Positions 7,632 through 31,707 of a stretch of DNA of 32,728 nucleotides are shown piece by piece. This DNA is from a virus: positions 1 to 32,728 of IMG/VR virus record IMGVR_UViG_3300009515_000016. The stretch is one strand, 5' to 3'. The notes beneath the pieces are model-generated. The model did no database searches. It was not told where the DNA came from and worked only from the letters and a program-made list of their open reading frames with translations. Each line of letters starts with the position of its first letter. Positions within the stretch are counted from its first letter, which is position 1. A program made the translations under genes and the position numbers.

Positions 7632-10600
7632 TACAGCAACTTGATCGCCCAAACCCCGTAGGCAGTTGGGTTCATAATGTCCATTGCTGTCCCGGATCCG
7701 GCGGAATTCGTGGTTATTCCGGTTGTCGCGCTCGCAGCCGTTACGCCCGTCGTCGCACTCTGATTCGTGACGCCAGTCGTTGCGCTCTGGTTCGTGATAC
7801 CAGTCGTCGCGCTTGTCGTCGACGAGCTCGCCGTGCTGCCGGTTCTCACGTCACCGAGGCCAGCGGCTGTGTTCGCGTTGGCCCCACCCCCAAGTGTGTT
7901 CTGGCTGTGGGTATGCCCCGTGTCGTTGACCGTGTGCGTATGCCCTGTGTCGTTCACGGTGTGAGTGTGGCCGCTGTCATTGATCGTATGGGTGTGGCCG
8001 CTGTCGTTGATCCCGTGATTGTGAGAGGGCATTTCGCCTTCAGCAATCGTATGGTCCTCCGCGCCCACCATGTCACCCACGCTACGAGCAGTTAGGCCTG
8101 GGCCTGTTCCGCTACCACCCAGGGTGTGCCCGCGTGACTCAGGCAGGTTGAACGTCGTTGACCCGTCGCCCACTCCCCAGTCTGTTCCCAGCTTGGAGAA
8201 GGCCTCGGCATACGTCGTTCTGCTGACGGCGCTCGCGTCCATTTGCGCCCAGCCACTTGGAAGAGCGGCGGAGTGCGGGAACCAGCTGGTCATGCCGATC
8301 TCGAAGCCGTCCCCCGAGGAGTCGACACGGATTGGTGTATCTGAATCTTGCTGCTGGTAATACAGCCCCTTTTCGACCAACCCGTCAGCGTCATTCCCGT
8401 CAGATACGAAAAGTCGATTCCGGCTGCTTTTGGGCTTAACGCTGGGCTCAAAATCAACTGTGCTGCATGTAGCAACAGCCTGAGCCTCTAGGCAGCTGTT
8501 TTTGTCCACGAAGAACTTACGGTCTACCTCTGCAATGAGGTCACCGCGATTACCAGGCCCAGTTGTCTTGGTTCCGCGATCATTCTCCAGCAGCAACAAA
8601 GGGCGATCGTCAATGACGTTGCCGTCACCTCTGTGCTCTCGCGTAATCTGCGCCACCCCTCCAATCTGCGCGTGAACACTGGATCCCCCTTCAGCCTCCA
8701 GAATGGAATGCAGTGTTAGGGAAGTTCCTTGTCGGCGTCCATACTGGAGCTCCTGGCCCTCCCTTGATACGTGGTGCGTTCCAAGGTGGTGACCAGAGGC
8801 AGGGCCGGCCCTGTTTCTGTTGACTGCCGTGATAGACGCCTCAAGGTGGCCCCCCCCGCCGGCCAATGCGTTGAATGACTTTTGCAGGCAGCCGAATTGA
8901 ATCTGAGTAAACCTCAGAGAGGCCTCAGCTGTAGCAGGGCCGTGGCGATCGCCGGCTATAGGAGCCGGAAGGTTAGCCATGTTGTATTCGCCAACGCCGT
9001 ATGACGTCGGCTCGTTGCTGGCTCCGGGGATCCTGTAAGACTCCCCGGAATTCATAAAGATCTGCCAGTTTCCGTCCGCGTCTCTCCTTACGGCCGGGTG
9101 GCCAAATATCTTGTCGTCGTTTGTCTGAAGGTACGGCGGAACAGAAACACCACCAGCTCCGGATCCGACTCCAGACGGAGAAAGCCCGCCAGGAACCTTG
9201 CTGTTGAACCCAGTGTCTTTGGTGCTGAAGTCTCCTCCAGCTATGTTCCCCGTCGCCGAACATGGAACGGCCGCAGCTATTCCCGTGTCCCCGTCTTGAC
9301 TGCTGGGATTCTCGGCTCCACCGGCAGGGTCTCCCCTGTCACCGCCCTCTGGTGTCCTCCCGTGAGACTGCTCGCTTACGCCCCCTCCCCCTCCGGTCCT
9401 TTGGCCGCTGGAATACCCTGCAGCTGGAGCCGCAGCCCCGGCAAATTGCTGGACGAACGAGGGGCGAAACATTCCAGCCGGCTCCGAGGGAGCAAACGGC
9501 TCAGGGAGAACGCTGGCGACAATTGGCTGCCCATTGCTTTGAATGAAGTCAATGACCTCGTTGATCGGGGTTTTTGTGCGAGGCTTCCTGAACGGTGGCT
9601 CCTCTGGGTCTGGGTGCGGGTCCGGTATATCCTCCAGCTCCGGGTCTGGATCCGGGCCAGGGCCTGAAGCAACAACAGCAGCTCGCCTCGCGTCTGCAGG
9701 ACCGCTCTCGACCTGCTCCTCTGGGGGCCTGTCCCTAAATGGCAAGGCGAAGTCAACCCTGATAACGGGAACCCATTGCGCCGTCTCCTCGCCAAGGTTG
9801 TCCCCCAGGTTGGCGATTGACGAGTCTGGCCACATTTCGCCCTTGAACAATCCGCCAATGAGAACGTCGCTATACGGGTCTAGCTCCTGCTTTTTCCAGG
9901 GGATCATTTTGGCGTCTGTATTGACGAATCGGATTCTCCCTACCCATTGTGCGCCTTGAGTTGGATCCACCGGCCCCATGGCCCATTGGGCGTCAGTCCT
10001 GCCCACGAGAGGGCCTTCCCAAGTACCCTCTGAGCCCTGCCGGTAACGAGCCCTTGCCGCCTCTGGCATAAAGAACGTCGACAATGGCGCATGGCGGGCT
10101 GGTCCACGCTCTTTAGGTGCGCGAGTCTGAGTAGGCCCGAGTCTCCCAAGGGGATTGTCAGGGGTGAGCGTCTTGATAACCCTCTCTCGGGTTTGCGCGC
10201 TCGACCTTTGCTCTTTTAGGGAGTCCTTGAATGACTGATCTTTGGGTATCCCTCCGCTGTACACAAATCCAAGCGGCTCGGACGTGGCCAGTGGGCCAGT
10301 GTATTTCGCGCTCGGTCCCTCGGGAGGGAAAAGGGTGTCAATGTCTTTGTCCGTCAAGGACTGAGCGTCACTTATCGGCTGCGTAGGTCCAGAGCGATCA
10401 CCCTTCAGCTCAACTACTGACTGCCCACCGACGACAATGATCTTCTTGACCTGGCTCGGATCAATGCTGGGATCTAGGGCAGATTGACCAACGCCAGTTG
10501 TGTAACCTTTCTGAATGCCGAACCCGGTAAAACCTCCAGGCAGCCCAAAGCCAAGCCCGAACCCAGTAGAGGCGAACAGCCTGTTTTGATTTCTGGCTAT

Positions 10601-11656
10601 TGTCGCTGGGTCCTGGTCTCCAAAGGTAGCGCTCTCAAATTGAAACCTCCCAGTATTCTTGCCCAAGCCAAAGATCGAAGCTCCACCGTTCCCAAGCCCG
10701 TCGTTTCCAACCTTGTCTATACCCCTAATTGGTGGCGCTTCGAAGCTGCTGAACTTAGACCCGAATACAGGAATCGTCCTGCCCTTCCGGTCTTTTACAA
10801 ACTGCTGCAGAAACTGCCCGGTTTGGTCCAGGGGAGTCTCTCGCAGGCGATTGATTCGCCCCTGGTCCTTGGTGATCTTGCTCTGTATCTGCTCGATCTT
10901 TTTCTTGGCCCCAGCTACACGCCTCTCTTTGTCAAACTTGGCTTTAGACTCAACGTCACGCAGTTTTTCTTCGGCCTTTTCCAGCTCCCTCTGATTCCGC
11001 TCAATCCTATTCTGGAGCCTGGCCTGCGCCTCAGCCCCCAACTGAACTGCTTGAGGCGCGGATATGTTGCTCGCCACTTGGGCGCCAGCGTCACTAACCT
11101 CCTGCGTTCCTGTGCTGTTGACCTTCGAAGCTACTTGCCGCGATCTTTCAGTCGTGCCACGAACTGGACCCTGCTCGGCAATAATGCTGCGAGAGTAACC
11201 AAGCTCCTGACTCTGCATGTTCAGGGCAACCATGTGCCTGTTGTCAGCGGAGTCAGTCACCCGCATTAAGGAACTCGGTACAGCAGTCCTTCCGGCAGCG
11301 TCAACCCAACGCGTCGAGGGATTCCCAGGACTGAATGCAGAATCTTGCCCAAACGGAGCCGGTCGCCGGCTATCCTTATCTCCAGCTGGATCACAAATGA
11401 CTTGGAAATTCCAACGCCTGTCGGCGATCCCGTCACCACGAGGCACGCCCAAGTTATCAAAGCGCAGGGCAAGAGGTTGGAACGGACCCGATAAGACAGG
11501 GCTTGCAGAGGGGACGCCAGTATCCTTGTCCGAGCGAGCCATTCCAGTGACAAATGACGAAGTCTTGCCCTCAACCGTGTACGGATTCAACCTGAAATCG
11601 GCTACGGGGATACGGTCGACATTTCCAGTCTCAGCGGATTTCTGCCTATCCGTCAT
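7631..11656 (-). CDS. Large tail tip/fibre protein with collar domain and HxH repeats
   Basis: 1341 aa. Layout: an N-terminal part of unknown fold (1-205), a strong coiled coil (about 208-274), Gly-rich segments (315-390), a Pro/Asp hinge (about 665-690), a Gly/Ser-rich linker (about 740-830), and near the C-terminus a phage tail-collar domain (about 1121-1185, including LPSGWAQMDAS, DGSTTFNLPESRGHTLGG). Then follow SHNHG, four 9-residue repeats with HTH at 1216-1251 and four ATTG(V/I)T-type 9-mers at 1283-1318, ending YGVWAIKLL. Collar plus HxH repeats is the build of receptor-binding fibre ends; in T4 gp37 such HxH motifs bind iron. It is coupled to the hub-like gene (ATGA), so it is probably the distal adhesin of the tail. 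Confidence 0.8.
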   Translation of the reverse strand: MTDRQKSAETGNVDRIPVADFRLNPYTVEGKTSSFVTGMARSDKDTGVPSASPVLSGPFQPLALRFDNLGVPRGDGIADRRWNFQVICDPAGDKDSRRPAPFGQDSAFSPGNPSTRWVDAAGRTAVPSSLMRVTDSADNRHMVALNMQSQELGYSRSIIAEQGPVRGTTERSRQVASKVNSTGTQEVSDAGAQVASNISAPQAVQLGAEAQARLQNRIERNQRELEKAEEKLRDVESKAKFDKERRVAGAKKKIEQIQSKITKDQGRINRLRETPLDQTGQFLQQFVKDRKGRTIPVFGSKFSSFEAPPIRGIDKVGNDGLGNGGASIFGLGKNTGRFQFESATFGDQDPATIARNQNRLFASTGFGLGFGLPGGFTGFGIQKGYTTGVGQSALDPSIDPSQVKKIIVVGGQSVVELKGDRSGPTQPISDAQSLTDKDIDTLFPPEGPSAKYTGPLATSEPLGFVYSGGIPKDQSFKDSLKEQRSSAQTRERVIKTLTPDNPLGRLGPTQTRAPKERGPARHAPLSTFFMPEAARARYRQGSEGTWEGPLVGRTDAQWAMGPVDPTQGAQWVGRIRFVNTDAKMIPWKKQELDPYSDVLIGGLFKGEMWPDSSIANLGDNLGEETAQWVPVIRVDFALPFRDRPPEEQVESGPADARRAAVVASGPGPDPDPELEDIPDPHPDPEEPPFRKPRTKTPINEVIDFIQSNGQPIVASVLPEPFAPSEPAGMFRPSFVQQFAGAAAPAAGYSSGQRTGGGGGVSEQSHGRTPEGGDRGDPAGGAENPSSQDGDTGIAAAVPCSATGNIAGGDFSTKDTGFNSKVPGGLSPSGVGSGAGGVSVPPYLQTNDDKIFGHPAVRRDADGNWQIFMNSGESYRIPGASNEPTSYGVGEYNMANLPAPIAGDRHGPATAEASLRFTQIQFGCLQKSFNALAGGGGHLEASITAVNRNRAGPASGHHLGTHHVSREGQELQYGRRQGTSLTLHSILEAEGGSSVHAQIGGVAQITREHRGDGNVIDDRPLLLLENDRGTKTTGPGNRGDLIAEVDRKFFVDKNSCLEAQAVATCSTVDFEPSVKPKSSRNRLFVSDGNDADGLVEKGLYYQQQDSDTPIRVDSSGDGFEIGMTSWFPHSAALPSGWAQMDASAVSRTTYAEAFSKLGTDWGVGDGSTTFNLPESRGHTLGGSGTGPGLTARSVGDMVGAEDHTIAEGEMPSHNHGINDSGHTHTINDSGHTHTVNDTGHTHTVNDTGHTHSQNTLGGGANANTAAGLGDVRTGSTASSSTTSATTGITNQSATTGVTNQSATTGVTAASATTGITTNSAGSGTAMDIMNPTAYGVWAIKLL
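7703..7810 (-). repeat. Four 27-bp tandem repeats in the tail tip gene
   Basis: Four copies of a 27-base unit encode ATTG(I/V)T followed by three variable residues (NQS, NQS, AAS, TNS). They are at residues 1283-1318, just before the C-terminal peptide. Codon-level similarity is high, so copy number could change by slippage or recombination. Confidence 0.75.
7904..8011 (-). repeat. Four 27-bp tandem repeats encoding HTH metal-binding motifs
   Basis: The unit reads (I/V)ND(S/T)GHTH(T/S); His pairs fall at 1221/1223, 1230/1232, 1239/1241 and 1248/1250, with an extra HNH at 1212-1214 in front. In trimeric fibre tips such HxH triples coordinate a metal ion along the axis (known for T4 gp37). Confidence 0.8.
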
Positions 11657-18962: not shown

Positions 18963-19306
18963 TACTTCCTCGAAATCGCCACGTATCTTGATCTCAGGAC
19001 AGAAAGAGCCTCAGCGTTCTGCGGCTCAAACTGCAGGGTTACCAAGGCGTCTGACACGTTTTTCGGATCGGCTGTGTCCGCCGGTATCGCCAACACAGCA
19101 GTCGCAATAGCATTGGCCTGGTCTCTCTCCGTCTTGCTGGCCCCAGCCGACAGATTCACGACGTACCTGGTGCCATTCCAACGCACGCCCTCCACAGGAA
19201 GCCCAGCTGCCTTGCACTGATCGTGGACGTCTGCCGGCTTGCCGCCAGGACCCATGAGGAACATTGCCAAGAAAGCACTCGCGAAACCCAATGCAAAGCG
19301 TCTCAT
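18962..19306 (-). CDS. Exported small protein after the fibre gene (114 aa)
   Basis: The ATG at 19306 overlaps the TGA of the 833-aa fibre gene; the GTG at 19312 is less likely. Residues 1-25 look like a Sec signal peptide (MRRFALGFASAFLAMFLMG). The mature part has VRWNGTRYVVNLSAGASKTERDQANAIATAVLA, a pattern like small fibre-associated phage proteins, and ends in a helix/strand region. A signal peptide on such a protein is odd; the preceding fibre has one too. There is no lipobox Cys. It may be an exported partner of the fibre or an N-anchored membrane protein. Confidence 0.6.
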   Translation of the reverse strand: MRRFALGFASAFLAMFLMGPGGKPADVHDQCKAAGLPVEGVRWNGTRYVVNLSAGASKTERDQANAIATAVLAIPADTADPKNVSDALVTLQFEPQNAEALSVLRSRYVAISRK

Positions 19307-21804
19307 TTCCACCCCTGCACTCTCATTCCTGCCAGGATCGCAGTTCCGCCCGCGTCACCGTAGGCTGTCTCTGTAGCCGCCGTGCTGGTCGTCTCCAAAA
19401 GCCTCAGCGTCCGGAATCCAAGGCCAGGCGTTCCCGCGTACTGAGCCGAAATTGTGATCGGGCTAGACGTGTCACCGTGGAAGGCTATGGACGAATCAGC
19501 CGAAACCGTTGTCGTGGAGTCAACCGCGAAGGCGAACGCGTAATTCCCGTCCACCTCTATCGTTGCCAAGGCGCTTACGGGCTGCTCAACAACCCCTGTG
19601 ACAATGCCGTAGACCCAGGCGTTGTCTCCTCCGTTGGTAGCCGAATACGTCAGATTGCCAGCGTCGGTCCAAGAGTCGGTGTCGTCCGGGCGGAAATCGC
19701 TGTAGGGGAGCCTGTTGTAGTAGTTCCAGGTAAAGCGCTCAGCAGGCTCTGCGGCTCCCGTGTCTGCAAACCCGCCACTTGCTGTTGTCCTAACCGTTCC
19801 CACGTAGCGCTTTGTCGCGTCTCCAGTCAGCACATACACGCCGTCTTGGGTGGTCAGGGCCGTGGCCCTGGCCGTGTCTGTGCTCCACGCTGTTGCCGTT
19901 AGCCCACTCGTGCTGTCTAGGAACACGTCGTAGTTCGTGTCCACAGAGAGCCCAGAATTGCTCAAGACGTAACCGGCGCCAATGTCGAAAAGCTCCCAGC
20001 GAGTTCCTGAGTAAAGGGCAACATAGTCGCCCTTGTAGGGCAAAAGGTAGACAACTGTCCCAGTGTTATCGCCTGTTGGCGCAGGGTCAGAGCTGCTCAA
20101 CGACAACCGAGCCTGAAACGTGCTCGGGTCCTGGGAGACGAAGAGCTGCGAGTCAATGCCGGCTATGTGGGCCGTTAGGTCGTCAACGTCAGCCGCCTCT
20201 GAGGGGCTAGAGTCAGGAACGTAGTTGCTGGGAGTCCAGTCTACGTCAAGGTGATCTCCGTCCAGCGTGGTGACGTCTACGCCAACCCCATTTGCAGCCA
20301 CTGTCACTGGTGCCGTATCGCCACCAGTCGTAACGTCTGGGGTGACTGTAAGCGTCGAACCCCCGCCGCCACCGATTCCGTTTCCTTGAGCAGCCAGGCG
20401 TAAATTCGCCGGGCTCCCACCGTCAGACTCCAGGCCAGTCCCGGCGAAGTCTGCGACAGCTATATCTAGGGTAATGTCCCCCGTGTTCCCGTCGTCAGTT
20501 AGGCCGTCTCCACCAATGACGTCTGTGACGTCACCGCCCGCTGCTGCACCCAGCGCCGTATCAATTCCGTTTAGGTGCGCCTGGAGCGTGGCAGCCGCAG
20601 CCGTGTAGTTGGTCGTCGAGTCTACAACCGGAAGATCCTCACCACTGAATCCGAGCTTAGGCAGGGCAATAGAGTTGTCCTTTATCTCGGCCTGCCCAAC
20701 TGAATTGTCTGCAATCTGAGTTTCCCCAACAGCGTCTGCTCCAATGTCGTCAACGGTGATTGTTCCGTCAGCAATCTTTGCTGACGTAACCGCGTCAGTC
20801 GCGATCTCTGCAACGCCCACTGCTCCCGAGGCTATCTCGTCACTGTCAACGGAATCTGTCGCCAGCTCAGCAGCCGTAATCCCGCTAATCGTAAGGTTCA
20901 CGGCCCCAGACGTGGCACCACCAGCCAAGGGCGCAGTTGTGTTTACTTCTGTTATGTCACCACCGGAGGATACAGCCGCCAAAGCTGAGTTGATCCCATT
21001 CAGGTGCGCGCTCAGGTGATTTTCAGAGTCCACGTCAGCAATGCCGGTGTTCGGCGTGTACTGAGTTGGCTCGTAGTCAATGACCACCTTGTCGCCGTCG
21101 AGGTCTTCAACGTCCACGCCGACACCAGAAGACGAGACGGTTACCTCGGCGATCGTTCCCCCCGTAAGCGTGTCAGCTTTGACAGAGAGAGCAGAACCGC
21201 TCCCACCCTGTAGCCCGTTGCCTGCTGCTGTGCTGGCGATCCGTATGTTCTTGGGTGAGCTCGAGTCAGCCTCAAGGCCTGCGCCAACTATCTCTGTGAC
21301 GTCGACGTCAATCTCGACTGCACCCGTGATCCCACCGCCACTCAATCCGTCGTCTGCGGTGACCGACGTTATGTCACCGTCTAGGCTGACGTCCATTTGG
21401 GCGAAATTGTGGCGCCAGGCCGCCCACCAGTGCCTAGAGCCCTGAGGTAGCTGCACCAGTCTGTTGTTGACGGTCGGCGTTTCCCAAGCTGCTGAGCCTG
21501 GAATGGGAGAGCCCCACTCACTACCGCTATTTCCGATTGTTTCGTCGTCAGTGACAACGCACGTAACACTATCCGTAATGCTGGAAATTCTCCAAAGTCC
21601 ACTTGTGCCTGCAGCTGTATTCGCGACCAGCAAGTCCGACACAACCATGCTCGTTGTCGACGTAACGGTCAGTGTATAGGTTGTTGGACTCCCGCCGTTG
21701 TTAACTACATTGGTGATCGTTGTCGTTGAGCTCGCTCCGGTGAGCACGAGCATTGCAAACAACCCAATGCACACAGCAATGGCCCACGAGAAAGTCTTTT
21801 TCAT
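19303..21804 (-). CDS. Fibre-like repeat protein with N-terminal signal peptide (833 aa)
   Basis: N-terminus MKKTFSWAIAVCIGLFAMLV followed by LTGASS is a typical Sec signal peptide or membrane anchor. The body is beta-rich with two copies of a module of about 130 residues (about 144-275 and 425-553). Each has (D/G)DGL...G, GAGLE or GTGLE, N(I/L)R(I/L)A, GVGVDV and ending in AH(L/I)xGI(N/D)S. Between them lie seven 10-residue repeats of the SVxSxEIA kind (315-384), common in trimeric phage fibres. The C-terminal part (560-833) contains KGDYVALYSGTRWELFDIG and a beta domain, and ends GTAILAGMRVQGWK. It is coupled by ATGA to the gene before it. A fibre in the late operon is expected; a signal peptide on it is not. 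Confidence 0.7.
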   Translation of the reverse strand: MKKTFSWAIAVCIGLFAMLVLTGASSTTTITNVVNNGGSPTTYTLTVTSTTSMVVSDLLVANTAAGTSGLWRISSITDSVTCVVTDDETIGNSGSEWGSPIPGSAAWETPTVNNRLVQLPQGSRHWWAAWRHNFAQMDVSLDGDITSVTADDGLSGGGITGAVEIDVDVTEIVGAGLEADSSSPKNIRIASTAAGNGLQGGSGSALSVKADTLTGGTIAEVTVSSSGVGVDVEDLDGDKVVIDYEPTQYTPNTGIADVDSENHLSAHLNGINSALAAVSSGGDITEVNTTAPLAGGATSGAVNLTISGITAAELATDSVDSDEIASGAVGVAEIATDAVTSAKIADGTITVDDIGADAVGETQIADNSVGQAEIKDNSIALPKLGFSGEDLPVVDSTTNYTAAAATLQAHLNGIDTALGAAAGGDVTDVIGGDGLTDDGNTGDITLDIAVADFAGTGLESDGGSPANLRLAAQGNGIGGGGGSTLTVTPDVTTGGDTAPVTVAANGVGVDVTTLDGDHLDVDWTPSNYVPDSSPSEAADVDDLTAHIAGIDSQLFVSQDPSTFQARLSLSSSDPAPTGDNTGTVVYLLPYKGDYVALYSGTRWELFDIGAGYVLSNSGLSVDTNYDVFLDSTSGLTATAWSTDTARATALTTQDGVYVLTGDATKRYVGTVRTTASGGFADTGAAEPAERFTWNYYNRLPYSDFRPDDTDSWTDAGNLTYSATNGGDNAWVYGIVTGVVEQPVSALATIEVDGNYAFAFAVDSTTTVSADSSIAFHGDTSSPITISAQYAGTPGLGFRTLRLLETTSTAATETAYGDAGGTAILAGMRVQGWK
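20653..20862 (-). repeat. Seven 30-bp repeats encoding fibre decapeptides
   Basis: Seven 10-residue units (for example ATDSVDSDEI, ASGAVGVAEI, ATDAVTSAKI) at residues 315-384 end in I or L at fixed spacing. Such units build slender triple-stranded fibre shafts. Confidence 0.75.
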
Positions 21805-22289
21805 GTTCCACCCCCAGGGCCTTCGCCGGCACCGAATCCGCCTATCCCGCCAGCTGCAACCGAGGCTGGGCTCTCAACCCCAATGAATTGAATCGTGACC
21901 GAGGCTGCAGCGTCTTCGCCTTCTCCGGGGTATTCGTCGAAAACCATATCTGTCACCTGGGCGACCATGAGCCCGTCAACGCCACTCGGAACATTGGACA
22001 GGTGAAAATAGTCACGCATTAGCTGAGCCCAACGCTGGGCAATTGACTTGGCGACGTCGCTGATAAGGAGAAATGTGTACGAGTAACCCAGCAGCGTATT
22101 GCCCTGAACCTCTTGCAGTATCTCCGGGGCGTCAGTGGTCTTTCGGACCCATATCTCAGAAGCGCCAATAGAAGGGCGCTTCCTGTCTGATACGTAGACC
22201 TCACCAGCAGCGTCCAGACCCTCTGGTGCCCCAGATAGGGCAGTGATAACAGAGGTTGGTATAAGTGCTTCCAGTTGAAGAATGTTCAC
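21801..22289 (-). CDS. Head-tail or tail completion protein (162 aa)
   Basis: Start GTG at 22289 overlapping the upstream TGA (GTGA). The product has MNILQLEALIPTSVITALSG, a strand pair with RPSIGASEIWVRKTTDAPEI, a helix IAQRWAQLMRDYFHL, then FDEYPGEGEDAAASVTIQFIGVE, ending in Gly-rich sequence. Length and position after the gpG/gpZ-type gene fit a tail terminator or minor tail protein (lambda U/V position), but the sequence itself is not diagnostic. Confidence 0.5.
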   Translation of the reverse strand: MNILQLEALIPTSVITALSGAPEGLDAAGEVYVSDRKRPSIGASEIWVRKTTDAPEILQEVQGNTLLGYSYTFLLISDVAKSIAQRWAQLMRDYFHLSNVPSGVDGLMVAQVTDMVFDEYPGEGEDAAASVTIQFIGVESPASVAAGGIGGFGAGEGPGGGT

Positions 22290-23011: not shown

Positions 23012-24259
23012 CTACTCGTCCTTCGGAGCCGTTGTGGCCGTCAGGCTCTGCACAACAAACGCGTGATCCACAGCGCCAACCTCGTAGTCCCAGCTCATAG
23101 AGGCCTGGAAAACTACGTCAGCCTGAAGAGCTGCCTCAGCTTGCTCGCCAAGAGCCATTTCCATAGCGCGACGGCGCCACTTGCCGACGAATTGACGGCG
23201 GAAATTGCCCATGTACCAAGCGCTTGTCGAAAGGTCGTCGAGCTTCGGCGTGCTGACAACGCCGGCCACCCGCAGCGCCCCGCGAGGCCCGAACGGATTG
23301 AGCTCGTTCTCGGTTCCGGGCGTTAGCTCAGAATCAAGCAGCTTGAGAGCCGTTGGCAGGACCGTGTCTGGAACAAACAGAATGCGAGGACCAATGTTCA
23401 TGCGTTTGCCACGGGTGTTGGTCATGGCATTCAGAACTGCCCGCGCGTTCTGCAAATCCGTGAGGTCAGCCAGGGCGTTGTTGTTGATCCTCGTTCCACT
23501 GGGCGCGCGTGAGTGAGCCGTGGTGCTCGTTGTGTAGAGAGCGGTGCCTGTTCCGTTCGGACGCAAGACGTGCTCACTACCAGCCGCAGCTGAACCGTCG
23601 TGGTCTGTCACCTTCTTCAAGGTGATCTCCTCGACCAACTCAGCCATAATTTCGCCCAGGGCGTTAATGCGCCCAACGATCCCAGCAACGTCGTTCTCCT
23701 CGACCATTTTGCGACGAATCTTGAGCATTCGGCCGTTTAGACGGCTTCGAATCTCAAACTTCTCTTCGCCTGCGCCAATCAAGGGCCAGTCACCGTCTGT
23801 GTCCGGATCGTGGCGCGTCGGGTCCGCCTTCTTGGCGTCGTGCGACACAATCAACGCGTGCTGCGAGACCTCCTTCATGTTGTCTTCTTCGCGGACGAGG
23901 AACTGGCGAACACTGCCTACAGCCTCGAAAGCGTCGTTGACGCCAGCAACAGCCAAGTTGCCAGCCAGGAGGGGAAACGCGGAAGCCGAGACGACCCCAC
24001 GCTCGCGATCAAGGCAATCAACCTTGACGCCCTTAAGCGCGTCGTAGAGGCGCTTAATGCTGGCGATATTCTGCATGCGCAGCTCACCAGAATCAGTCAA
24101 GTCGCGCACCTTGGCCGCGAAATGCTTGGGATTCTCCCTGGCTTGGCTTGCCAGGCTTTCAATGTCAACGGTATCGCTCAAAACGACGTTACCGCGCACG
24201 GGGCGTTGGTACTGCCGCTGTGAGGCCCTCACTCCCTGATCGGGTGTGTAGATCTTCAT
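23012..24259 (-). CDS. Major capsid protein (HK97 fold)
   Basis: 415 aa with a strong AGGAG seven bases before the ATG, as expected for the most abundant virion protein. The region AELVEEITLKKVTDHDGS (about 210-230), the later NNNALADLTDLQNARAVLNAMTNTRGKRMNIGPRILFVPDTVLPTA and the C-terminal FRRQFVGKWRRRAM...ADVVFQASMSWDYEVGAVDHAFVV read like a Mu gpT-type or related HK97-fold capsid protein rather than lambda gpE. Residues 1-105 may be a delta-like domain removed or reordered on maturation. Next to protease/scaffold and decoration genes, which supports the call. Confidence 0.85.
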   Translation of the reverse strand: MKIYTPDQGVRASQRQYQRPVRGNVVLSDTVDIESLASQARENPKHFAAKVRDLTDSGELRMQNIASIKRLYDALKGVKVDCLDRERGVVSASAFPLLAGNLAVAGVNDAFEAVGSVRQFLVREEDNMKEVSQHALIVSHDAKKADPTRHDPDTDGDWPLIGAGEEKFEIRSRLNGRMLKIRRKMVEENDVAGIVGRINALGEIMAELVEEITLKKVTDHDGSAAAGSEHVLRPNGTGTALYTTSTTAHSRAPSGTRINNNALADLTDLQNARAVLNAMTNTRGKRMNIGPRILFVPDTVLPTALKLLDSELTPGTENELNPFGPRGALRVAGVVSTPKLDDLSTSAWYMGNFRRQFVGKWRRRAMEMALGEQAEAALQADVVFQASMSWDYEVGAVDHAFVVQSLTATTAPKDE

Positions 24260-24282
24260 TCTAAAGCTCCTCTAGCTCCCGA

Positions 24283-24804
24283 TTAGGAAAGCAAGCTGAA
24301 GGTTGAGAGAAACGAATTCGCCCGAACGATCGTCATTTCGGCAACCGAAACGGTGCGGATCGTTGTTCCTGCGTCTCCGCCGCCATGCTCTGCAGGCAGC
24401 TGCTTGGGGTAATTGCTGACGCCAGCAATGTGCCCCAGAATGTTGGTTCCGGCTGTGACTGTGACAGCTTCAGAGGAGCTGAAATACAGAGCCGTGCCGA
24501 TCGCAGAGTTTCCGGCCGCAGCCAGGTCATACGAGAACACGTCGTCAGGCCGAGGCACAATGATCTCGTAGTACCCCGCGAGGTCACCGGCCTTGATCTC
24601 CTGATTGGCGATCGCAATGACACCTGCACTCATGTCGAAATCGCTGTCGAGGGGTACCCACGTACTCCCCGCACCAGTCAGCTCCAGGAGCTCACCGGCC
24701 TTGATTGCTTGGGTTGCGCCTGCCTGGAACAGCCCCAAGATTACAAGTGGTTCTTTCGCGCCGTTTAGGTTACGGACCCAGCGCGAGGGTTGGTTAGTTG
24801 CCAT
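24283..24804 (-). CDS. Head decoration (cement) protein candidate
   Basis: 173 aa, beta-rich, of the type IKAGELLEL...GVIAIANQEIKAGDLAGYYEIIVPRPDDVFSYDLAAAGN...GTALYFSSSEAVTVTAGTNILGHIAG, the layout of capsid cement proteins with a beta-tulip/barrel fold (lambda gpD position, DUF2190-like appearance). GGAG lies six bases before the ATG. It is placed between the protease/scaffold and the major capsid genes, as gpD is. No second decoration gene is visible. Confidence 0.7.
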   Translation of the reverse strand: MATNQPSRWVRNLNGAKEPLVILGLFQAGATQAIKAGELLELTGAGSTWVPLDSDFDMSAGVIAIANQEIKAGDLAGYYEIIVPRPDDVFSYDLAAAGNSAIGTALYFSSSEAVTVTAGTNILGHIAGVSNYPKQLPAEHGGGDAGTTIRTVSVAEMTIVRANSFLSTFSLLS

Positions 24805-24823
24805 GATCGTCTCCTATCTGGCG

Positions 24824-25813
24824 TTAACTGGTAAAAGCGTTGAGGAACTCACTACTGCTGAGCTCCCTCTTCTGAGTGACTGGCGTGTCCTTGACCGGAG
24901 TAGGCTCGGGAGTACCAACGGGCTGAGCCTGCTTGCTCCAGCTCTCCAGCACGGCGTTCCTGGCGTCCTCGAGCTCATTCCCTCGCTCAGCTCCAGCGAC
25001 TGCCTTGCGGGCGACGTCGTGCAGGTGCTCAGGAGTGAAGGCAAGAACCGCCTGCACGACACTGACGATACGCTGAGCCTCTGCTGCGGCTTCCTCCGCC
25101 TCGGCCTGTGCCGCCCGAGCCCTAATCTCCTGGGGTAGGTCAATGATTGTGGTCTCTTCGCCCTTTTCTCCCTCGACCTTTCCACCCTCTTCCGCGGGTA
25201 GACCTTGGTCTGGCATGGCTGTCGAGAACGAGAATGTAGGCCCACCCTCGGACCGTTGCATTTCTTTCATGGCTCTAATTCCTTTGATTGCTGACATGAA
25301 ATCCCGCATAAGCAGAGCGTGCTTGTCCGCGGGAACTGGCACCGTGGAGATTTCCAGGAGCTCTGATTGAGTGACTAGAACGGCTGGCCCCTCAACGGTT
25401 CCGCTGGCCAACTCAGCCCTTGCCCCCTCCTCGAGGAAGCGAACTTGCTGCACCATGAACCCGACGCTTACGGCACGCAGGAACCCACCCTTTACCAGGC
25501 TCCAGATTTCCCCAGCTCGCTCTGTCTCAGCGAACTGCACCTTGGCAATGAGGTTTCCGTCCTCTTTCTTGAGCTCTACGGCGCGACCAATGACGGACAG
25601 GGATTCGCGCCTGTCGTGGGCGTCCAGAATGATCGGGTTGCTTTCAAAGCGCGCCGTGTCCATTCCGTCTACGACTAGGATCTCAGGACCGTCGAACGTC
25701 TGAACCGGAGTTTCAGACGCGGCAACGAACTCGGCTGTGCGATCGTCTTCGTTGATAGCTCGCTGAGAAAAGCTCAGGGCTCGATACAGCGCTTGCGGCT
25801 GTTCCAGTTTCAT
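24824..25813 (-). CDS. Prohead protease fused to scaffold (U35/HK97 family)
   Basis: 329 aa. The protease occupies about residues 1-170: H66 in LDAHDRRESLSVIG, the active Ser S116 in FLRAVSVGFM, and the closing signature LLEISTVPVPADKHALLMR (153-170). The remaining 160 residues are helical and charged with Ala/Glu-rich coiled coil (RARAAQAEAEEAAAEAQR), which matches a scaffold domain fused to the protease, similar in idea to lambda C/Nu3. It cuts the capsid and scaffold proteins during head assembly. ATGA overlap with the portal gene. Confidence 0.85.
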   Translation of the reverse strand: MKLEQPQALYRALSFSQRAINEDDRTAEFVAASETPVQTFDGPEILVVDGMDTARFESNPIILDAHDRRESLSVIGRAVELKKEDGNLIAKVQFAETERAGEIWSLVKGGFLRAVSVGFMVQQVRFLEEGARAELASGTVEGPAVLVTQSELLEISTVPVPADKHALLMRDFMSAIKGIRAMKEMQRSEGGPTFSFSTAMPDQGLPAEEGGKVEGEKGEETTIIDLPQEIRARAAQAEAEEAAAEAQRIVSVVQAVLAFTPEHLHDVARKAVAGAERGNELEDARNAVLESWSKQAQPVGTPEPTPVKDTPVTQKRELSSSEFLNAFTS

Positions 25814-27420
25814 GCAGCCAACCTTTCTTCGTCTTCGTCTTCGTCTTCGTCCTCGCCGGCGTCCTCGCCGACCTCGAGCTCTGGCTTATCAGCCTTCTGC
25901 TTAGGGCCAAGGCCAAGCTCTTCGCGCATTTCCTTCTCGCGCTTCTCCTCGAGCAGCCTCTGCATGAGGAGCTCCTCCCAGTCCTCACCAAGGCACGCCG
26001 CCTCTCGCTGCAGAGTTGTGAGGCCCATTTCCAGCTTGAGCTGCGTTGCTGCAGCTTCCTTCTGTGGATCAATCCAAGGCTTGGCTGGAGTGATAGCCTG
26101 GACAGAGCGGATATCCTCGACAGATACACCGCGCGATCGAGAGTCGCCACGCAAGGCAGCGTCCAGGTGAACCTGTTCCCAAATCCACCTAAGGCAATCA
26201 ATCAGTTCGTTCTGCTCTATAGCCCAGACAAGGCGTTCTTCGAGTATTTGTGTTCTGGCCGAGCTATAGTTGCTTTGCGACCAGTCGTTGAGCACTGTTT
26301 GCCAGCTGAGCCCAAGAGCAGCACCGATCCTGCGCGCCAGCATGAAAACGAACGATTCCAAACCGGGTACCGGGAAGTTAGGAACCAGAGTTTCGATTTC
26401 TTCGCCTGGCTGCAATTTGAAAATCATGCCCGGCTCGATATCCGTATCGAGCTGATAGCCATACTTCTCGGCCGTCACGTCCAGCATTTGAGGCATAGAC
26501 GCAGGCGACTTTAGAAATACCGCAAGGCAAGCACTGATCTGCACGCGCTTAAGGGAGGCGAGCAACAGCAAATCCAAGTCGTGGATATCCTGCAGCACAG
26601 CGTGCATAACAGGCTCTCCGCGACTCTGCCCTGGGCGAGACTGGCGGCGTGAATGCCACACCATTTCAGCTGGGACACGGTCGAAGTCCTCCGACCCCAG
26701 CGGAATGGCAAATGGCTTGTTCCCGGTCGTGTTGTGGAGCGTGGTATCTCCAGGGTGATTCTTGGATACCCAGTAAGCTACGCGTATTCCGTTTCTATCC
26801 TTCTCGACACCAGCCCGGATTGAGCCCTGCGGATCTGCAGGTGAGGCGTCCAGGGGGGTGCGAACCCTGTCAGCCTCAACCAGCTCGAACCAGACAGGGT
26901 CCAGGGGCGAGGTCTTAACCATTTTGACGAAGATCTCTCCGTCTTCGAAACGCTTACCTGCGACGATCCTCTGGGCAGCGGCGAAAGGAAGCCCTTCGGC
27001 GCGAAACAACTCGTCTCGTCGCTCGCGCCAAAGGGAATCCATATTGCGTGATCGTAGGGGAACCTTGGTGCGCGCCTGCAGGGCTATGCCAGTCCCTGCT
27101 GTGTGCCGAATGTGTGCGCCGTGTAGGCCTGATCCAATCGGATCGTCCCTGCGCAGCAAGCGAGACCTATCACGCAAGGTGGATATGTCCCCGAGCAGCT
27201 CACCGTCCGCGGATAGCGCGGAAGAGAGCCATGGGGTCTGGCCAGGACCGGAGCGAGCTCCGCGGTAACCGCGCGCGCTCAACGCACCCAGCCAAGCGTC
27301 CCTGTAAGCCTCGTCTTCGTCTAGCTTGCGAACGTGCTCCCTGACCGCGCGCCGCTCAAGGCTTCTCTGTGGGCTGAATATGCCCAAGAACGCGTCAGCG
27401 AAGGTATCCCACCAGCCCAT
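25810..27420 (-). CDS. Portal protein, lambda family
   Basis: 536 aa, typical for lambda gpB-type portals. Seen: helical start MGWWDTFADAFLGIFSPQRSLERRA, then LRDRSRLLRRDDPIGSGLHGAHIRHTAGTGIALQAR, then the WFELVEADRVRTP...GSIRAGVEKDRNGIRVAYWVSKNHPGD strand region, MHAVLQDIHDLDLLLLASLKRVQISACLAVFLKSP, and GLSWQTVLNDWSQSNYSSARTQILEERL, all standard of the family. It forms the dodecameric DNA gate and binds the terminase. The C-terminus ends in a very acidic tail (EVGEDAGEDEDEDEDEERLAA) made by a short tandem repeat, unusual for portals. Coupled TAATG with the gene before and ATGA with the next. Confidence 0.92.
   Translation of the reverse strand: MGWWDTFADAFLGIFSPQRSLERRAVREHVRKLDEDEAYRDAWLGALSARGYRGARSGPGQTPWLSSALSADGELLGDISTLRDRSRLLRRDDPIGSGLHGAHIRHTAGTGIALQARTKVPLRSRNMDSLWRERRDELFRAEGLPFAAAQRIVAGKRFEDGEIFVKMVKTSPLDPVWFELVEADRVRTPLDASPADPQGSIRAGVEKDRNGIRVAYWVSKNHPGDTTLHNTTGNKPFAIPLGSEDFDRVPAEMVWHSRRQSRPGQSRGEPVMHAVLQDIHDLDLLLLASLKRVQISACLAVFLKSPASMPQMLDVTAEKYGYQLDTDIEPGMIFKLQPGEEIETLVPNFPVPGLESFVFMLARRIGAALGLSWQTVLNDWSQSNYSSARTQILEERLVWAIEQNELIDCLRWIWEQVHLDAALRGDSRSRGVSVEDIRSVQAITPAKPWIDPQKEAAATQLKLEMGLTTLQREAACLGEDWEELLMQRLLEEKREKEMREELGLGPKQKADKPELEVGEDAGEDEDEDEDEERLAA
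25827..25850 (-). repeat. Hexanucleotide repeat encoding the acidic portal tail
   Basis: Four tandem copies of CTTCGT (plus strand) encode alternating Asp-Glu at the portal C-terminus. Such a run can change in length by slippage without breaking the frame. Confidence 0.7.
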
Positions 27421-27689
27421 TAGCGCCTCCCGTGAGAGGTACGCGTTTTGGTGATTCGTCGCTGCACGTCTTGCCTGGTGGACTTCAACGCCTGAATAGT
27501 CCTGCCAAGCGCGTCAAGATTGCGAATCATGGTCACCGCGGCCGTGTCACCAGACATGGACGCAGGGAGGCCAACAGCTATAGCCTGAGCAACAGCATGC
27601 TGAGTCTCGGCCGTGACAAGGTCACCAGACGCAAGCGCGACGGCACATGCGTCTAGGGCCGTGTTGAAATCTGCATTGGTGATTGGCAC
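27420..27689 (-). CDS. gpW-position head-tail joining protein candidate (89 aa)
   Basis: GTG start (27689). Product MPITNADFNTALDACAVALASGDLVTAETQHAVAQAIAVG is helical with a basic end (RQDVQRRITKTRTSHGRR). It stands between the large terminase area and the portal gene, where lambda has gpW (68 aa). Family-level similarity is not evident, so the call rests on position, size and helical character. TAATG overlap with the portal gene. Confidence 0.5.
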   Translation of the reverse strand: MPITNADFNTALDACAVALASGDLVTAETQHAVAQAIAVGLPASMSGDTAAVTMIRNLDALGRTIQALKSTRQDVQRRITKTRTSHGRR

Positions 27690-27749
27690 CCGCCAATCAT
27701 GGACAAAGAACGGCTACATTCGTTCTATTCGCATACAAAACTGAATTAA
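27690..27749. other. Short spacer between zinc-ribbon gene and gpW-position gene
   Basis: Sixty bases, AT-rich on the zinc-ribbon side. It is one of the few breaks in the coupled late operon. I see no clear hairpin or promoter boxes. Confidence 0.4.
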
Positions 27750-28061
27750 CTAGCAGGTTTTGACTGGTAGCTTGAAGCTGTGGCCGCACTCTGGATTCCT
27801 GCAGCGAAAGTAGGCCAGCGTAGCGTGAGTGCTTCGGCAGTAAACAACCTGGCCAATGTCTGGCGTCCAGACCAGCAGGCACTTGGGGCAGGGCATTTGC
27901 CGCCGTATCCAGGCCTGTGGAGTAATGCCAACCCAGGAAACGACCCCCGTATCTTCGTCGTGAACAGCACCACCTCTGGACGCAGTTTGGCCGGGAGTTG
28001 TCACGGATTGCTCTTGGTATGTGATCTGTGGCACGTCTTCACGCTTCTTTCGTCTACGCAT
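27750..28061 (-). CDS. Ogr/Delta-like zinc-ribbon protein (103 aa)
   Basis: The C-terminal half has C58-x2-C61 (MPCPKCLLVW), then a strand with YCRSTHATLAYFRC and C87-x4-C92 (RCRNPECGHSF), the spacing and ending of the Ogr/Delta family of small late-gene activators (CPxC ... YxxCxNxxCGxxF). The N-terminal 50 residues are basic (MRRRKKRED) and otherwise not recognised. In P2-type phages such proteins switch on late promoters; here the gene sits inside the late operon, right after the large terminase (TAA followed directly by ATG), so a structural or packaging role is also possible. Confidence 0.6.
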   Translation of the reverse strand: MRRRKKREDVPQITYQEQSVTTPGQTASRGGAVHDEDTGVVSWVGITPQAWIRRQMPCPKCLLVWTPDIGQVVYCRSTHATLAYFRCRNPECGHSFKLPVKTC

Positions 28062-30029
28062 TTACCTTCCAATCCTCCAGCCCCTCTGTCTTCTCTCTCG
28101 ATACGAGCCGCCAACTTCAGGGTTAGGCTGTTCCTTCTCCAGGTACGGTCGCCGCACGCCAACGCCCTCGGTGATATCCCTTCGCGTTCGTTCGCCGTGC
28201 AATGGAGCCATGTTCAACGCCGCTGCATACGCGTATAGGCTTGAGTCCAGCCAGTGATTAGGCCCTTTGTTCTTCCAGACTCTCTTGCCACGATCCACGG
28301 TCATAAACTCAGAGCTAACCTGGCGAAGGAACTCCTCGGACACGTCAGCAGGCAGCGAAAGCCTGTAGATAGACTCAAGGTCACTGACTGGAAGGCGCTT
28401 TCTCACCATGCCCAGAAACGAGCTCTTGAGCCTGAACGTGTTCAGGATCCCCTGGCGGATCGTGTTATCTGAGAACTGCTGGCCGGCGTAGACGTACGAG
28501 ACCTTTCCACCCCAGCGAAACGGCGGCTGTGGGCTCCTGTCGTCGGAGGCGCCCCCCTTGATCGGCACAGCACGCAGCGGCTGCGAACGGCAGTAGTGAT
28601 AAACCCCCACCGGGCTCCAACCAGCGTCGTGGTAACACTGCTGCACCTGCAGGAAGCCCGACTCGTCGATATAGCCGAACTGCCGGTCATAAATCAGCTG
28701 GTCAAATGGCCTCAAATCAGCAGGGTCTAGCGTCTCCGAATAGTCTTTGTCCCGTACGCCAGATTCAATCATTGCCCCGCAAAGGTTTACGTGCCCAGAA
28801 ATGTCCCGCACCTGGCCCCAGCCCCAGATTGAGTAGTGGAGCTCACGCGCCCCAGAGTCTTGCCCAGCTGTGAGGAAACTTACCCAGCTGGGAACCTCTC
28901 CCGAGTAATAAACTCCCCCATGGGGTGCAGTTGACAGCCTGCGCCAATCCTCGAGCGTTGTCTCTGCGACTTTTGCCTGAAAGCAATCACCCATTCGCTT
29001 GTTGACGAACACTCGCATGGTTGCGTCGTCTTCGATTCCCTCGACGTACTTCTCAGCCAAGAATCGCAACGTCTTGTTCGGCATTAACAACTGGCTCATG
29101 TGCACACCGATCCAAGGCTTCTCTGCTGCCACCTCCGGGTCTAGCACTGACTTCTGCTCTGTCTCGCGGCACATGGTGAACCGCTGTGCGTCCGTGAGAA
29201 TGCAGCCACAGCAAGGCGTCACGTAACAATATCTGGCAGGGTTTCTACGAGCCGCCTCCAAGCTCTCACCCTCCTTCGAGTGCACCTTGACGTGGCCCCA
29301 CTGTGGCCAAAACTCGGTGCCACAGTGAAAGCACGGGGCGAAAGCCCGCCTCTGGTCTGACAGGTCGTAGTAGAGCTTCCCCGCGCCCCTCTCTTTGATC
29401 GAAGGGTGAGCGAAGGCAATCATTAGCGTGTTTCCAGGAAAGGCGTCCATTCTGACTTCAGCCAGCTTCAGGGGATCCCCCTGTCCCTGGATCTCGTCGA
29501 GCAGTGAATCAACCTCGTCGATAATCACGAACCGATAGGGAGTCGTCTGCAGATTGAGCACGCTCCGCCCGCCCTGGATCACCAACTTTCCGTCGGTGAA
29601 TCGCTTGATATGGACGAGCTCGCCCTTGGTCCTGCCCCGGATCGCCTTGCGCCTAATCGGGTCGCACGTGTCGATAATGTACGAGAACCTCTCTCGGCCA
29701 AACTCTCTGGCTAGCTCGTCTTTTGAAATCAGATACAGGCTGGGGCCAGGGTAATACGTCTGCAACCACGCCCAGGCGTTGATAATCGCCTCGGAACCGC
29801 CTCCCTGCCCGTTTTTCATAAGAACGACGCCGCGCTTTCCCTTACGCAGCGCCTCCTCGATAACGTCCATGATTGACGTCAGGTAAGGGAAGTACTTATT
29901 GCTCCAGCGCCCAGGACGGGCGGTAGTTCCCTCTCGGAGCATTCGGTAACGCTCTGCGAATTCCGAGACAGACATTCTGGGCATGGGCCGGATTGTCTCG
30001 AGGGCAACGCCAACCAAGTCTGAGGTCAC
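28062..30029 (-). CDS. Terminase large subunit, GpA family
   Basis: About 655 aa. ATPase motifs: a deviant P-loop KNGQGGGS at residues about 73-80 whose Lys comes first (as in lambda gpA, KSARVGYS) and Walker B FVIIDEVD at 168-175, then motif III-like LMIAFAHPSIKERGAGK. The C-terminal nuclease part begins near TAGQDSGARELHYSIWGWG with later DRQFGYIDESG. A zinc-ribbon-like stretch CFHCGTEFWPQWGH and YVTPCCGC occurs at about 240-280, common in this family. Start: GTG at 30029, whose GTGA overlaps the stop of the 48-aa gene; GTG at 30032 is the alternative. It cuts and packages DNA with the small subunit. Confidence 0.92.
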   Translation of the reverse strand: MTSDLVGVALETIRPMPRMSVSEFAERYRMLREGTTARPGRWSNKYFPYLTSIMDVIEEALRKGKRGVVLMKNGQGGGSEAIINAWAWLQTYYPGPSLYLISKDELAREFGRERFSYIIDTCDPIRRKAIRGRTKGELVHIKRFTDGKLVIQGGRSVLNLQTTPYRFVIIDEVDSLLDEIQGQGDPLKLAEVRMDAFPGNTLMIAFAHPSIKERGAGKLYYDLSDQRRAFAPCFHCGTEFWPQWGHVKVHSKEGESLEAARRNPARYCYVTPCCGCILTDAQRFTMCRETEQKSVLDPEVAAEKPWIGVHMSQLLMPNKTLRFLAEKYVEGIEDDATMRVFVNKRMGDCFQAKVAETTLEDWRRLSTAPHGGVYYSGEVPSWVSFLTAGQDSGARELHYSIWGWGQVRDISGHVNLCGAMIESGVRDKDYSETLDPADLRPFDQLIYDRQFGYIDESGFLQVQQCYHDAGWSPVGVYHYCRSQPLRAVPIKGGASDDRSPQPPFRWGGKVSYVYAGQQFSDNTIRQGILNTFRLKSSFLGMVRKRLPVSDLESIYRLSLPADVSEEFLRQVSSEFMTVDRGKRVWKNKGPNHWLDSSLYAYAAALNMAPLHGERTRRDITEGVGVRRPYLEKEQPNPEVGGSYRERRQRGWRIGR

Positions 30030-30172
30030 CACGAGCAGTCAATCCAGACACAAAGGAGCGTGGCCAATGCCACGACTGGAACCACCATTCCAACCGGGAC
30101 GAACTGCAGCGCGAGGAGCGCAACTACCCCAATTGCCAGGCAACGTAACCATTCAGCTCTCTTGCTCTTCAC
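30026..30172 (-). CDS. Tiny membrane protein with hydrophobic hairpin (48 aa)
   Basis: Found in the 120-base gap between the two terminase genes. GTG start (30172-30170) within the end of the small-terminase gene; its TGA (30028-30026) overlaps GTG of the large terminase as GTGA. The product begins MKSKRAEWLRCLAIG, then two hydrophobic stretches (about 12-25 and 29-44) split by a Pro-Val-Gly turn, ending WIDCSW: a basic N-terminus plus hairpin, like small holins or pinholins. The weak ribosome binding site is a drawback. A membrane effector between terminase genes is unusual, and its function is unknown. Confidence 0.55.
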   Translation of the reverse strand: MKSKRAEWLRCLAIGVVALLALQFVPVGMVVPVVALATLLCVWIDCSW

Positions 30173-30848
30173 GGATCATGTTCTCGAACTGCTCCGCCCC
30201 CAGCTCCCTCAGCGAATACACTTGAGAGTGCCACCAGGCCCTGACAGCACGCCCCCTGTTCTCTGTGGCCATTGACGTGAAATCCGGGTCGCTAATCCAA
30301 ACCTCAACCTGATTCGCCAGCACGCTTTCCGCGTTGGCCAACAGGCCGCAGCACATTGACGTGATTCTGCCAATCACGCCTTTGGCGACCTCCCTCTTAA
30401 TCAGCTCACCGCGCCTCTCCTGCATGGTGAGCATGCCCTCTTCCGTCCTACGGCATTCCTCAAGGGACTTCTTGAGCGCGTCAACGATCCTGTTATCCAG
30501 GTCTCCGTTGTTGACGGCTGTTGCCATTGCGGCCGACGTAACCCTGACTGCAGCCCTAGCTCTCTCCAGAGTCGAGGAGCCGTGCGAAGAGAGCACTTCG
30601 GCGTCAGAAGAAGCTGACTTTTTTCTCCCCTTGGAGATTGGGATTTTCTTGGGGCCAATCGTCTTAACGCCTGTTGGGCTGGGCTTCTTTCTGAATCGCG
30701 TGTTCTTTGAGATAGCTTCCCTGCACTCGTCGACGTCCCAGCCGTCCTTGTGCTTCTTTGGGAACCAAGGCTGCAGGGATAGCTGGGACAGGTAGCTTTG
30801 AGACCGCCCTAGCTCGTCTGCAAGTTTTCTCTTGGTCGGAACGCGCAA
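30153..30848 (-). CDS. Terminase small subunit, Nu1-like DNA-binding protein
   Basis: 231 aa. N-terminal winged helix-turn-helix (KRKLADELGRSQSYLSQLSLQPWFPKKHKDGWDVDECREAI, residues about 6-46) resembles lambda Nu1 and related small terminases. A basic linker (KKPSPTGVKTIGPKKIP) and a long helical part for oligomerisation and large-subunit contact follow. TTG at 30848 is the only sensible start; AGG lies seven bases upstream. It precedes the GpA gene in the same order as lambda Nu1-A, which makes the assignment safer than sequence alone. Larger than Nu1 (181 aa). It probably recognises a packaging site nearby, possibly the dyad upstream. Confidence 0.75.
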   Translation of the reverse strand: MRVPTKRKLADELGRSQSYLSQLSLQPWFPKKHKDGWDVDECREAISKNTRFRKKPSPTGVKTIGPKKIPISKGRKKSASSDAEVLSSHGSSTLERARAAVRVTSAAMATAVNNGDLDNRIVDALKKSLEECRRTEEGMLTMQERRGELIKREVAKGVIGRITSMCCGLLANAESVLANQVEVWISDPDFTSMATENRGRAVRAWWHSQVYSLRELGAEQFENMIREEQES

Positions 30849-30945: not shown

Positions 30946-31707
30946 TTGAGTCGCTGGCACCGGGTGCTGGTCATTCCCGACGTCCACTTCCCGCGCCATG
31001 ATCGCGCAGCCGTGCGCGCCACCCTTGAATTCGCCCAGAAGATAAAGCCCAGGCGAATTGTGCTCCTGGGCGACGTAATTGAGGCAGCTGCATTCTCGAG
31101 CCACCCAAAGGGATCCCTACACGAGTCCCCTGGGGATATCTTCGAGGAAGAGTACGCCCCAGCTCGACTCTTCCTCGACGAGCTCGAATCCTGCTCGAAG
31201 CAGGTCGATTATGTCTCCGGGAACCATGAATACCGGGTAGAGCGGATCGCAGCGAGCTGTGGATTCGTTCGCTCGGTCTACAAGGCGATCTCCCCCAAGG
31301 CCGTTCTTTCCTCTGGAAGAAGCCGCAAAAGCTTCAAATGGCACGACTACAATCCCACCAAAAGGCTTTCAGGCTGCAGGATAGCCCACGATCTCTATGC
31401 GATTCACGGCTGGTCTCACGCGAAGCATGCCGCCCACGTCCATATCACGGCCGGGAAGGGCATTAGCCTTGTCTTCGGGCATGTGCACCGAAGGGTTGAG
31501 GCGATCTGGGTGCAGCCGTTCACCCGGAAGAGGATTGAAGCTTGGAGCCCTGGGTGCCTATCTCAACTGATTCCGACCTGGCAACACTCCCCCAATGACT
31601 GGACCCAAGGGCTATCCGTCATTGACGTGAGGAACGATCTCAAGGCCTGGAAGCGCTTTAGCGTCGTCATTGAGAACGGCGAACTGCATTGGCCAAGCAA
31701 CCCATGA
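30946..31707 (+). CDS. Calcineurin-like metallophosphoesterase
   Basis: 253 aa. All metal-site motifs are present: D12-x-H14 (IPDVHFP), G42-D43 (LLGDVIE), G92-N93-H94-E95 (SGNHEYR), H154 (AIHGWS) and G178-H179-V180-H181 (FGHVHRR). It should be a binuclear phosphoesterase acting on phosphomono- or diesters; the substrate cannot be told. The start is TTG at 30946, the only one in frame after a stop; AGCGAGC upstream is a weak ribosome binding site. Its TGA overlaps the ATG of the next gene (ATGA). Phage homologues (lambda NinI group) are protein phosphatases, but others act on nucleotides or DNA. Confidence 0.88.
   Translation: MSRWHRVLVIPDVHFPRHDRAAVRATLEFAQKIKPRRIVLLGDVIEAAAFSSHPKGSLHESPGDIFEEEYAPARLFLDELESCSKQVDYVSGNHEYRVERIAASCGFVRSVYKAISPKAVLSSGRSRKSFKWHDYNPTKRLSGCRIAHDLYAIHGWSHAKHAAHVHITAGKGISLVFGHVHRRVEAIWVQPFTRKRIEAWSPGCLSQLIPTWQHSPNDWTQGLSVIDVRNDLKAWKRFSVVIENGELHWPSNP

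Follow-up and report, generated by a model that had tools for sequence, protein, structure and literature searches.

A predicted Sec signal peptide on a phage tail fibre, and its recurrence on unrelated fibres of tailed phages

The window, which comprises the entire 32,728-nucleotide stretch analysed here (IMG/VR virus record IMGVR_UViG_3300009515_000016), incorporates on its minus strand a head-tail operon in which a real open reading frame encodes a fibre of 833 aa (Table 1). The gene order on this strand is small and large terminase subunits, portal, protease, decoration and capsid proteins, three small genes and the fibre, followed by four small to medium-sized genes, further tail genes and a 1341-aa tail-collar fibre. 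The 833-aa fibre is encoded between a gene recognised by eye as tail-terminator-like and the tail genes, and shares its strand and operon with the terminase, portal, capsid and tail-collar fibre genes. A first-pass annotation had described a late-operon position like that of a tail fibre. The placement within the head-tail operon stands, but the usual distal fibre slot is occupied by the tail-collar protein rather than by the 833-aa fibre. Comparison against family libraries yielded no match for the fibre or its immediate neighbour genes, and searches for relatives of the capsid protein and of a 517-aa tail gene of the window found none, so that no close phage relative was available for comparison. 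The 116-aa product of the next gene carries a hydrophobic N-terminus behind an RR pair (MEMRRFALGFASAFLAMFLMGPGG), which is signal-peptide- or anchor-like and fails the cleavage rule. Divergent from the late operon, and behind a metallophosphoesterase gene (30946-31707), a further gene (31988-32602, plus strand) encodes a protein in which a von Willebrand A domain (PF13768, E=1e-8) is accompanied by an N-terminus (MKALILLAAALNVVTVQA) resembling a signal peptide.

Table 1. Features of the fibre gene and its surroundings in the window (residue numbers are those of the 833-aa fibre)
Feature	Position	Strand	Basis or remark
Tail-collar fibre, 1341 aa, without signal peptide	7631-11656	-	PF07484 E=2e-13; phrog_31611 E=4e-31
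Next gene, 116 aa	18962-19312	-	Overlaps fibre gene
Fibre gene	19303-21804	-	ATG to stop codon, 833 aa
C-terminal knob module, residues 559-833	19306-20130	-	AlphaFold pLDDT 94.9; part with C1q/TNF-like fold
Duplicated module copy 2, residues 424-554	20143-20535	-	Alignment versus shuffles
Shaft, seven decapeptide repeats, residues 317-386	20647-20856	-	Common to many phage tail fibres
Duplicated module copy 1, residues 143-275	20980-21378	-	Alignment versus shuffles
Orphan N-terminal domain, residues 25-142	21379-21732	-	Relatives searched, none found
Sec-type signal peptide, residues 1-24	21733-21804	-	n-h-c rule and shuffles
Upstream gene, 162 aa, tail-terminator-like	21801-22289	-	Position and by eye; no family match
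Head/packaging block: major capsid, decoration, protease, portal, terminase large and small	23012-30848	-	Upstream of fibre, same strand

The predicted signal peptide of the fibre (MKKTFSWAIAVCIGLFAMLVLTGA) consists of a MKK n-region with two lysines, an h-region of 14 residues with a mean Kyte-Doolittle hydropathy of 2.93, and a putative cleavage site after TGA and before SS, with acceptable residues at positions -3 and -1. Scoring was performed with a simple home-made n-h-c rule, not SignalP, and gave a value of 5.7, which was matched by 0.16 % of shuffles of residues 2 to 45 and by 0/20,000 draws from the composition of the rest of the protein. Of all 19-residue stretches in the sequence, the most hydrophobic ones start within residues 1 to 12 (19-residue mean hydropathy of the N-terminus of 2.16). 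Among the long ORFs of the window, the fibre alone scores well at its own start. The protein thus displays the sequence characteristics of a Sec preprotein, including the positive n-region, the h-region, the -3/-1 residues and the placement of the start codon. Export via Tat was rejected as there is no twin arginine, and a lipobox of the Llp/Cor type is lacking, with no cysteine at the cleavage site and cysteines only at residues 12 and 82. The signal peptide claimed in the first-pass annotation is borne out by the score, the shuffles and its location at the first start of the frame and, as judged from these sequence properties, is not a product of chance.

It is very improbable that the signal represents an artefact, with translation starting further downstream or an N-terminus that is hydrophobic by chance. 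This explanation draws on the weak Shine-Dalgarno of the fibre gene and on two relatives (L021 and L022) with an ATG just behind the signal, where an internal start could possibly yield a signal-free virion form. However, no start codon (ATG, GTG or TTG) precedes that of the window gene in its frame, this ATG overlaps the stop codon of the upstream 162-aa gene (ATGA), none occurs between residues 20 and 53, the score is seldom reached by shuffles, and signals are conserved in a family of phage fibres described below (family A5).

Behind the signal peptide, the fibre is composed of an orphan N-terminal domain, a duplicated module, which is present on either side of a shaft of seven decapeptide repeats, and a C1q/TNF-like C-terminal knob. 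Searches with residues 25 to 142 gave no relative, and a structure model of residues 25 to 304 was unusable (N-terminal pLDDT of 35). The two copies of the duplicated module align with a score of 312, against a shuffle maximum of 85, and the periodicity of the shaft was equalled by 0/2000 shuffles; the shaft repeats and the duplication noted previously can therefore be upheld, the beta nature ascribed to the modules being putative. The knob (C-terminal 275 residues) was folded with AlphaFold using 66 relatives, and the resulting model partly resembles the Pgp3, BclA and C1q trimers (Foldseek E about 1e-5 to 2e-3), with the match of the C1q-like part spanning about 145 columns. Two proteins of uncultured phages match the knob model over its full length (TM 0.92). 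The shaft repeats and C-terminal knob are shared with known tail fibres, in accordance with a phage tail fibre or receptor-binding protein. A trimeric autotransporter adhesin was considered and rejected, with no Pfam match to a YadA-type anchor and a C-terminus formed by the C1q-like knob. No cellular protein with the same N-terminal domain and architecture was found when searched for.

The knob module is shared with tail spike or tail proteins of the Pam5 and RR1-A phages, with 80 IMG/VR loci and with 13 loci in bacterial or archaeal genomes. Most of these 93 loci lack a hydrophobic N-terminus. Homologues of this kind had been put forward as a finding that would speak against the original proposal, and for the C-terminal module they do exist; export is not thereby refuted, because the pattern is one of modular gain. 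Textbook signal peptides are found in L078/L079 (MIRFFFIAACFILWANSANA, followed by GC), L080 (MSLKLKAILIALALSLSASSAYA, followed by EC) and L021 (MSPSLVRRRRVVTCLVVLALVLPAIAAA, followed by QG), one with a long n-region in L022, and further signal peptides in five Bradyrhizobium loci (L108, L117, L120, L121 and L122). In a tree built from 81 knob modules, seven changes are needed to explain the signal label of eight rows, and at least three of these changes are forced by well-supported branches. As background, one of 177 neighbouring non-fibre ORFs of at least 300 aa passes the n-h-c rule. Since most knob relatives are without a signal, it is best read as a modular element which has been gained repeatedly, and not as an ancestral anchor. 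In the virus of L078 (L095), the signal-bearing fibre is encoded between a head-tail adaptor and the head-closure gene Hc3 (phrog_637 and phrog_578). The signal-bearing viral contigs examined contain one knob copy each, and the idea of a pair of virion and secreted paralogues was rejected on these grounds. Small signal-bearing proteins are also encoded downstream of signal-free fibres (L041:6962-7597, and L003:6891-7358, the latter being Pam5 gp19), with that of L041 being cysteine-rich.

The same C1q-like knob is carried by a Staskawiczbacteria protein with a signal peptide (L099) and an Oligoflexia lipoprotein (L102), and exchange between phage fibres and cell-surface proteins is possible. 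These cellular-looking proteins could be taken to indicate that the gene is a secreted host adhesin captured by the phage. This origin is hardly credible, however, considering that most knob relatives are located in viral contigs, that matches of the shaft and knob are to the tail fibres and spikes of phages, and that the window gene is embedded in a head-tail operon.

A known virion-binding N-terminal domain is present in one of the signal-bearing relatives. Directly behind its signal, the L021 protein contains a domain homologous to the head-binding domain of the Pam1 tailspike (PDB 7eeq, E=3e-10), and in those annotated records of phage isolates with a Pam1-type domain that were checked, the protein starts at the domain or within about 15 residues of it; one further record had no annotated gene at the matching region. 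This arrangement bears on whether the hydrophobic N-terminus may be retained, either as an inner-membrane anchor or as a hydrophobic virion-attachment peptide. The h-region of the window fibre is long and very hydrophobic, and its cleavage site (TGA or GASS) is a less typical one than AxA, both of which are in keeping with an uncleaved N-terminus. Against this, AxA sites are found at the domain borders of other members, the signal of L021 precedes a separate head-binding domain, and homologues in the same slot do without a signal. Retention is accordingly deemed improbable, and the latter two observations render the virion-attachment peptide, one of two options in the first-pass annotation, unlikely. 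The other option, a fibre exported by design, gains from the recurrence of signals with cleavage sites at domain borders on unrelated phage fibres.

A second family of signal-bearing fibres (family A5; L150-L159, L117 and L120) was found via an N-terminal domain common to the Bradyrhizobium proteins L117 and L120, which led to ten viral contigs (L150-L159). The signal is kept in nine of the ten viral members and is of the type MKxLRR...PAFA with cleavage before Q, followed by a conserved domain of 125 aa, which occurs without a signal in L159. The N-terminal domain is strongly conserved and the C-terminal modules are swapped, with one of the swapped parts (G204) read as a beta-helix lyase type. 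In four members (L151, L152, L154 and L157), the stretch from the signal to codon 58 is devoid of start codons, and a signal-free product of internal initiation is therefore predicted to be unlikely in these. A CxC pair occurs in the N-terminal domain of the signal-bearing members of L150-L159, except L158, and is absent from L159 and from the Microcystis phage Mwe-JY08; this pattern is as would be expected for an oxidising compartment.

The gene order in three of the contigs (G204, G209 and G211) is T7-like, with portal or adaptor, capsid, tail tube A and B and internal proteins; the protein families of the T7-like contigs were tested mainly in G209. An internal virion protein of gp16 size (phrog_342 in G204 and G209) directly or closely precedes the signal-bearing fibre in G203, G204 and G209, which puts the fibre in a position corresponding to the T7 tail-fibre slot, and neither G204 nor G209 showed another large fibre. 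In G211 the signal-bearing fibre is located between the capsid and tail tube A genes. The isolate Mwe-JY08 encodes the family A5 domain (hhalign E=5e-18), without a signal, directly behind its phrog_342 protein. The likeness to T7 is restricted to genomic position, as identity of the A5 N-terminal domain with that of T7 gp17 was rejected (no Pfam match; hhalign probability 0.5 %). Further signal-bearing proteins are encoded in these regions. A second large, glycine-rich protein with a signal peptide (MKRIAIACAFLLASAWSIYA, followed by Q) is encoded right behind the signal-bearing fibre of L158, between the capsid and tail-tube genes (L158:8259-10565). In two T7-like podoviruses, small proteins with a Sec-type signal (L165:6732-7217; G209) and a Tat-type signal, MDRRGFLTG (L167:13286-13657; G212), are encoded directly upstream of the tail-tube-A gene.

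Export of the window fibre is considered quite likely on this sequence evidence, because signals recur, including before the head-binding domain of L021 and in the T7-like slot of family A5, and several of them have no start codon behind the signal. Where the exported fibre would act can be stated less firmly. It may act only on the host envelope, as an adhesin, receptor blocker or surface modifier, with another fibre serving the virion. This is rather unlikely overall, but several observations agree with it. The tail-collar protein provides the window phage with a further fibre, without a signal, and the knob also occurs on cellular-looking secreted proteins or lipoproteins (L099 and L102). 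In Bradyrhizobium, the gene after the signal-bearing fibre of L149 (L149:9528-10439) encodes another protein with a signal, which was interpreted as an SGNH/sialate-esterase type and matches the tail-fibre family phrog_4201. The elements L148 and L149 encode an integrase (L148) and primase/helicase-type genes (both), and 18 kb of sequence showed no capsid genes. The integrase/primase-type genes of the Bradyrhizobium elements around L120 and L122, combined with a lack of capsid genes over the 18 kb covered, suit a role without virions. There are also precedents in T5 Llp, which is encoded beside the receptor-binding protein and blocks FhuA from the periplasm (PMC9586334), and in the Tat-exported WceF of Pantoea, which has a tailspike fold (PMC7949094). 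By contrast, the T7-like contigs G204 and G209 offer no large candidate for the fibre slot other than the signal-bearing protein, the N-terminal domain of family A5 shows the strong conservation to be expected of a domain that attaches to virions, and with one knob copy per signal-bearing viral contig examined, no pair of virion and secreted forms was seen.

The reading tentatively preferred is that the processed fibres are exported and then joined to virions at lysis, perhaps also being active on envelope receptors. The host Sec machinery would export the fibre chain, signal peptidase would remove about 24 residues, and the mature trimer would fold outside the cytoplasm. Virions assembled in the cytoplasm would encounter the mature fibres once lysis has disrupted the membranes, and the fibres would bind them through their N-terminal domain, these two steps being less certain than the preceding ones. 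In the meantime, and with the same reserve, the exported pool may occupy or modify the receptors of the host itself, resulting in less superinfection and less progeny lost on debris. The signal would represent a module gained repeatedly by fibres. That the mature protein would still bind virions is suggested by the conservation of the N-terminal domain in family A5. A virion role is favoured by the fibre slot, this conserved domain, the L021 head-binding domain and the absence of further copies or fibres. Conversely, the tail-collar fibre of the window phage could serve the virion alone, and joining after export would be unusual for tailed phages. A role on the virion and one at the envelope are mutually compatible. 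Extended beyond the window, and put forward with somewhat greater reserve, virion fibres of several tailed-phage lineages may pass through Sec (or Tat), mature outside the cytoplasm and attach at lysis, with the exported pool doubling as an exclusion factor.

The fibres of tailed phages are taken to fold and attach in the cytoplasm. No description of signal peptides on their virion fibres was found in open-access papers, the coverage of which is incomplete. The parts observed here are of known kinds, and what appears to be undescribed is the repeated joining of a Sec signal to phage fibres. If the readings above are correct, recurrent signal-bearing fibres, including those in the T7-like slot, would point either to extracytoplasmic maturation and late attachment or to widespread exported exclusion factors. 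Either outcome would change the annotation and expression of the receptor-binding proteins of environmental phages, the latter because a heterologous construct which retains the signal would be exported. Export of the signal-bearing fibres is directly testable.

Among known systems, the closest counterparts of the knob are the tail spike or tail proteins of Pseudanabaena phage Pam5 (gp18) and Rhizobium phage RR1-A, which share the same C-terminal knob at 28 to 34 % identity, but are without a signal peptide and differ from the window fibre in their N-terminal parts. The head-binding domain of the cyanophage Pam1 tailspike has its homologue in L021, whereas the window fibre has a different, orphan N-terminal domain. 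T7 gp17 is not known to carry a signal peptide and has no detectable sequence match to the N-terminal domain of family A5, while the corresponding slot behind the gp16 homologue is held by signal-bearing relatives in G203, G204 and G209. The superinfection-exclusion lipoproteins T5 Llp and Cor are likewise phage-encoded and exported, and act on the receptor of the receptor-binding protein of their own phage (PMC9586334), but these are small lipoproteins, whereas the window protein is a large fibre without a lipobox. The WceF protein of Pantoea stewartii forms a trimer with a tailspike fold and is exported from the cytoplasm (PMC7949094); unlike the window fibre it is a bacterial enzyme encoded in an EPS cluster, with a Tat signal and a beta-helix fold. 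Similarly, Lom of phage lambda is a signal-peptide protein encoded among tail fibre genes (PMC12309495), but constitutes an outer-membrane beta-barrel and not a fibre.
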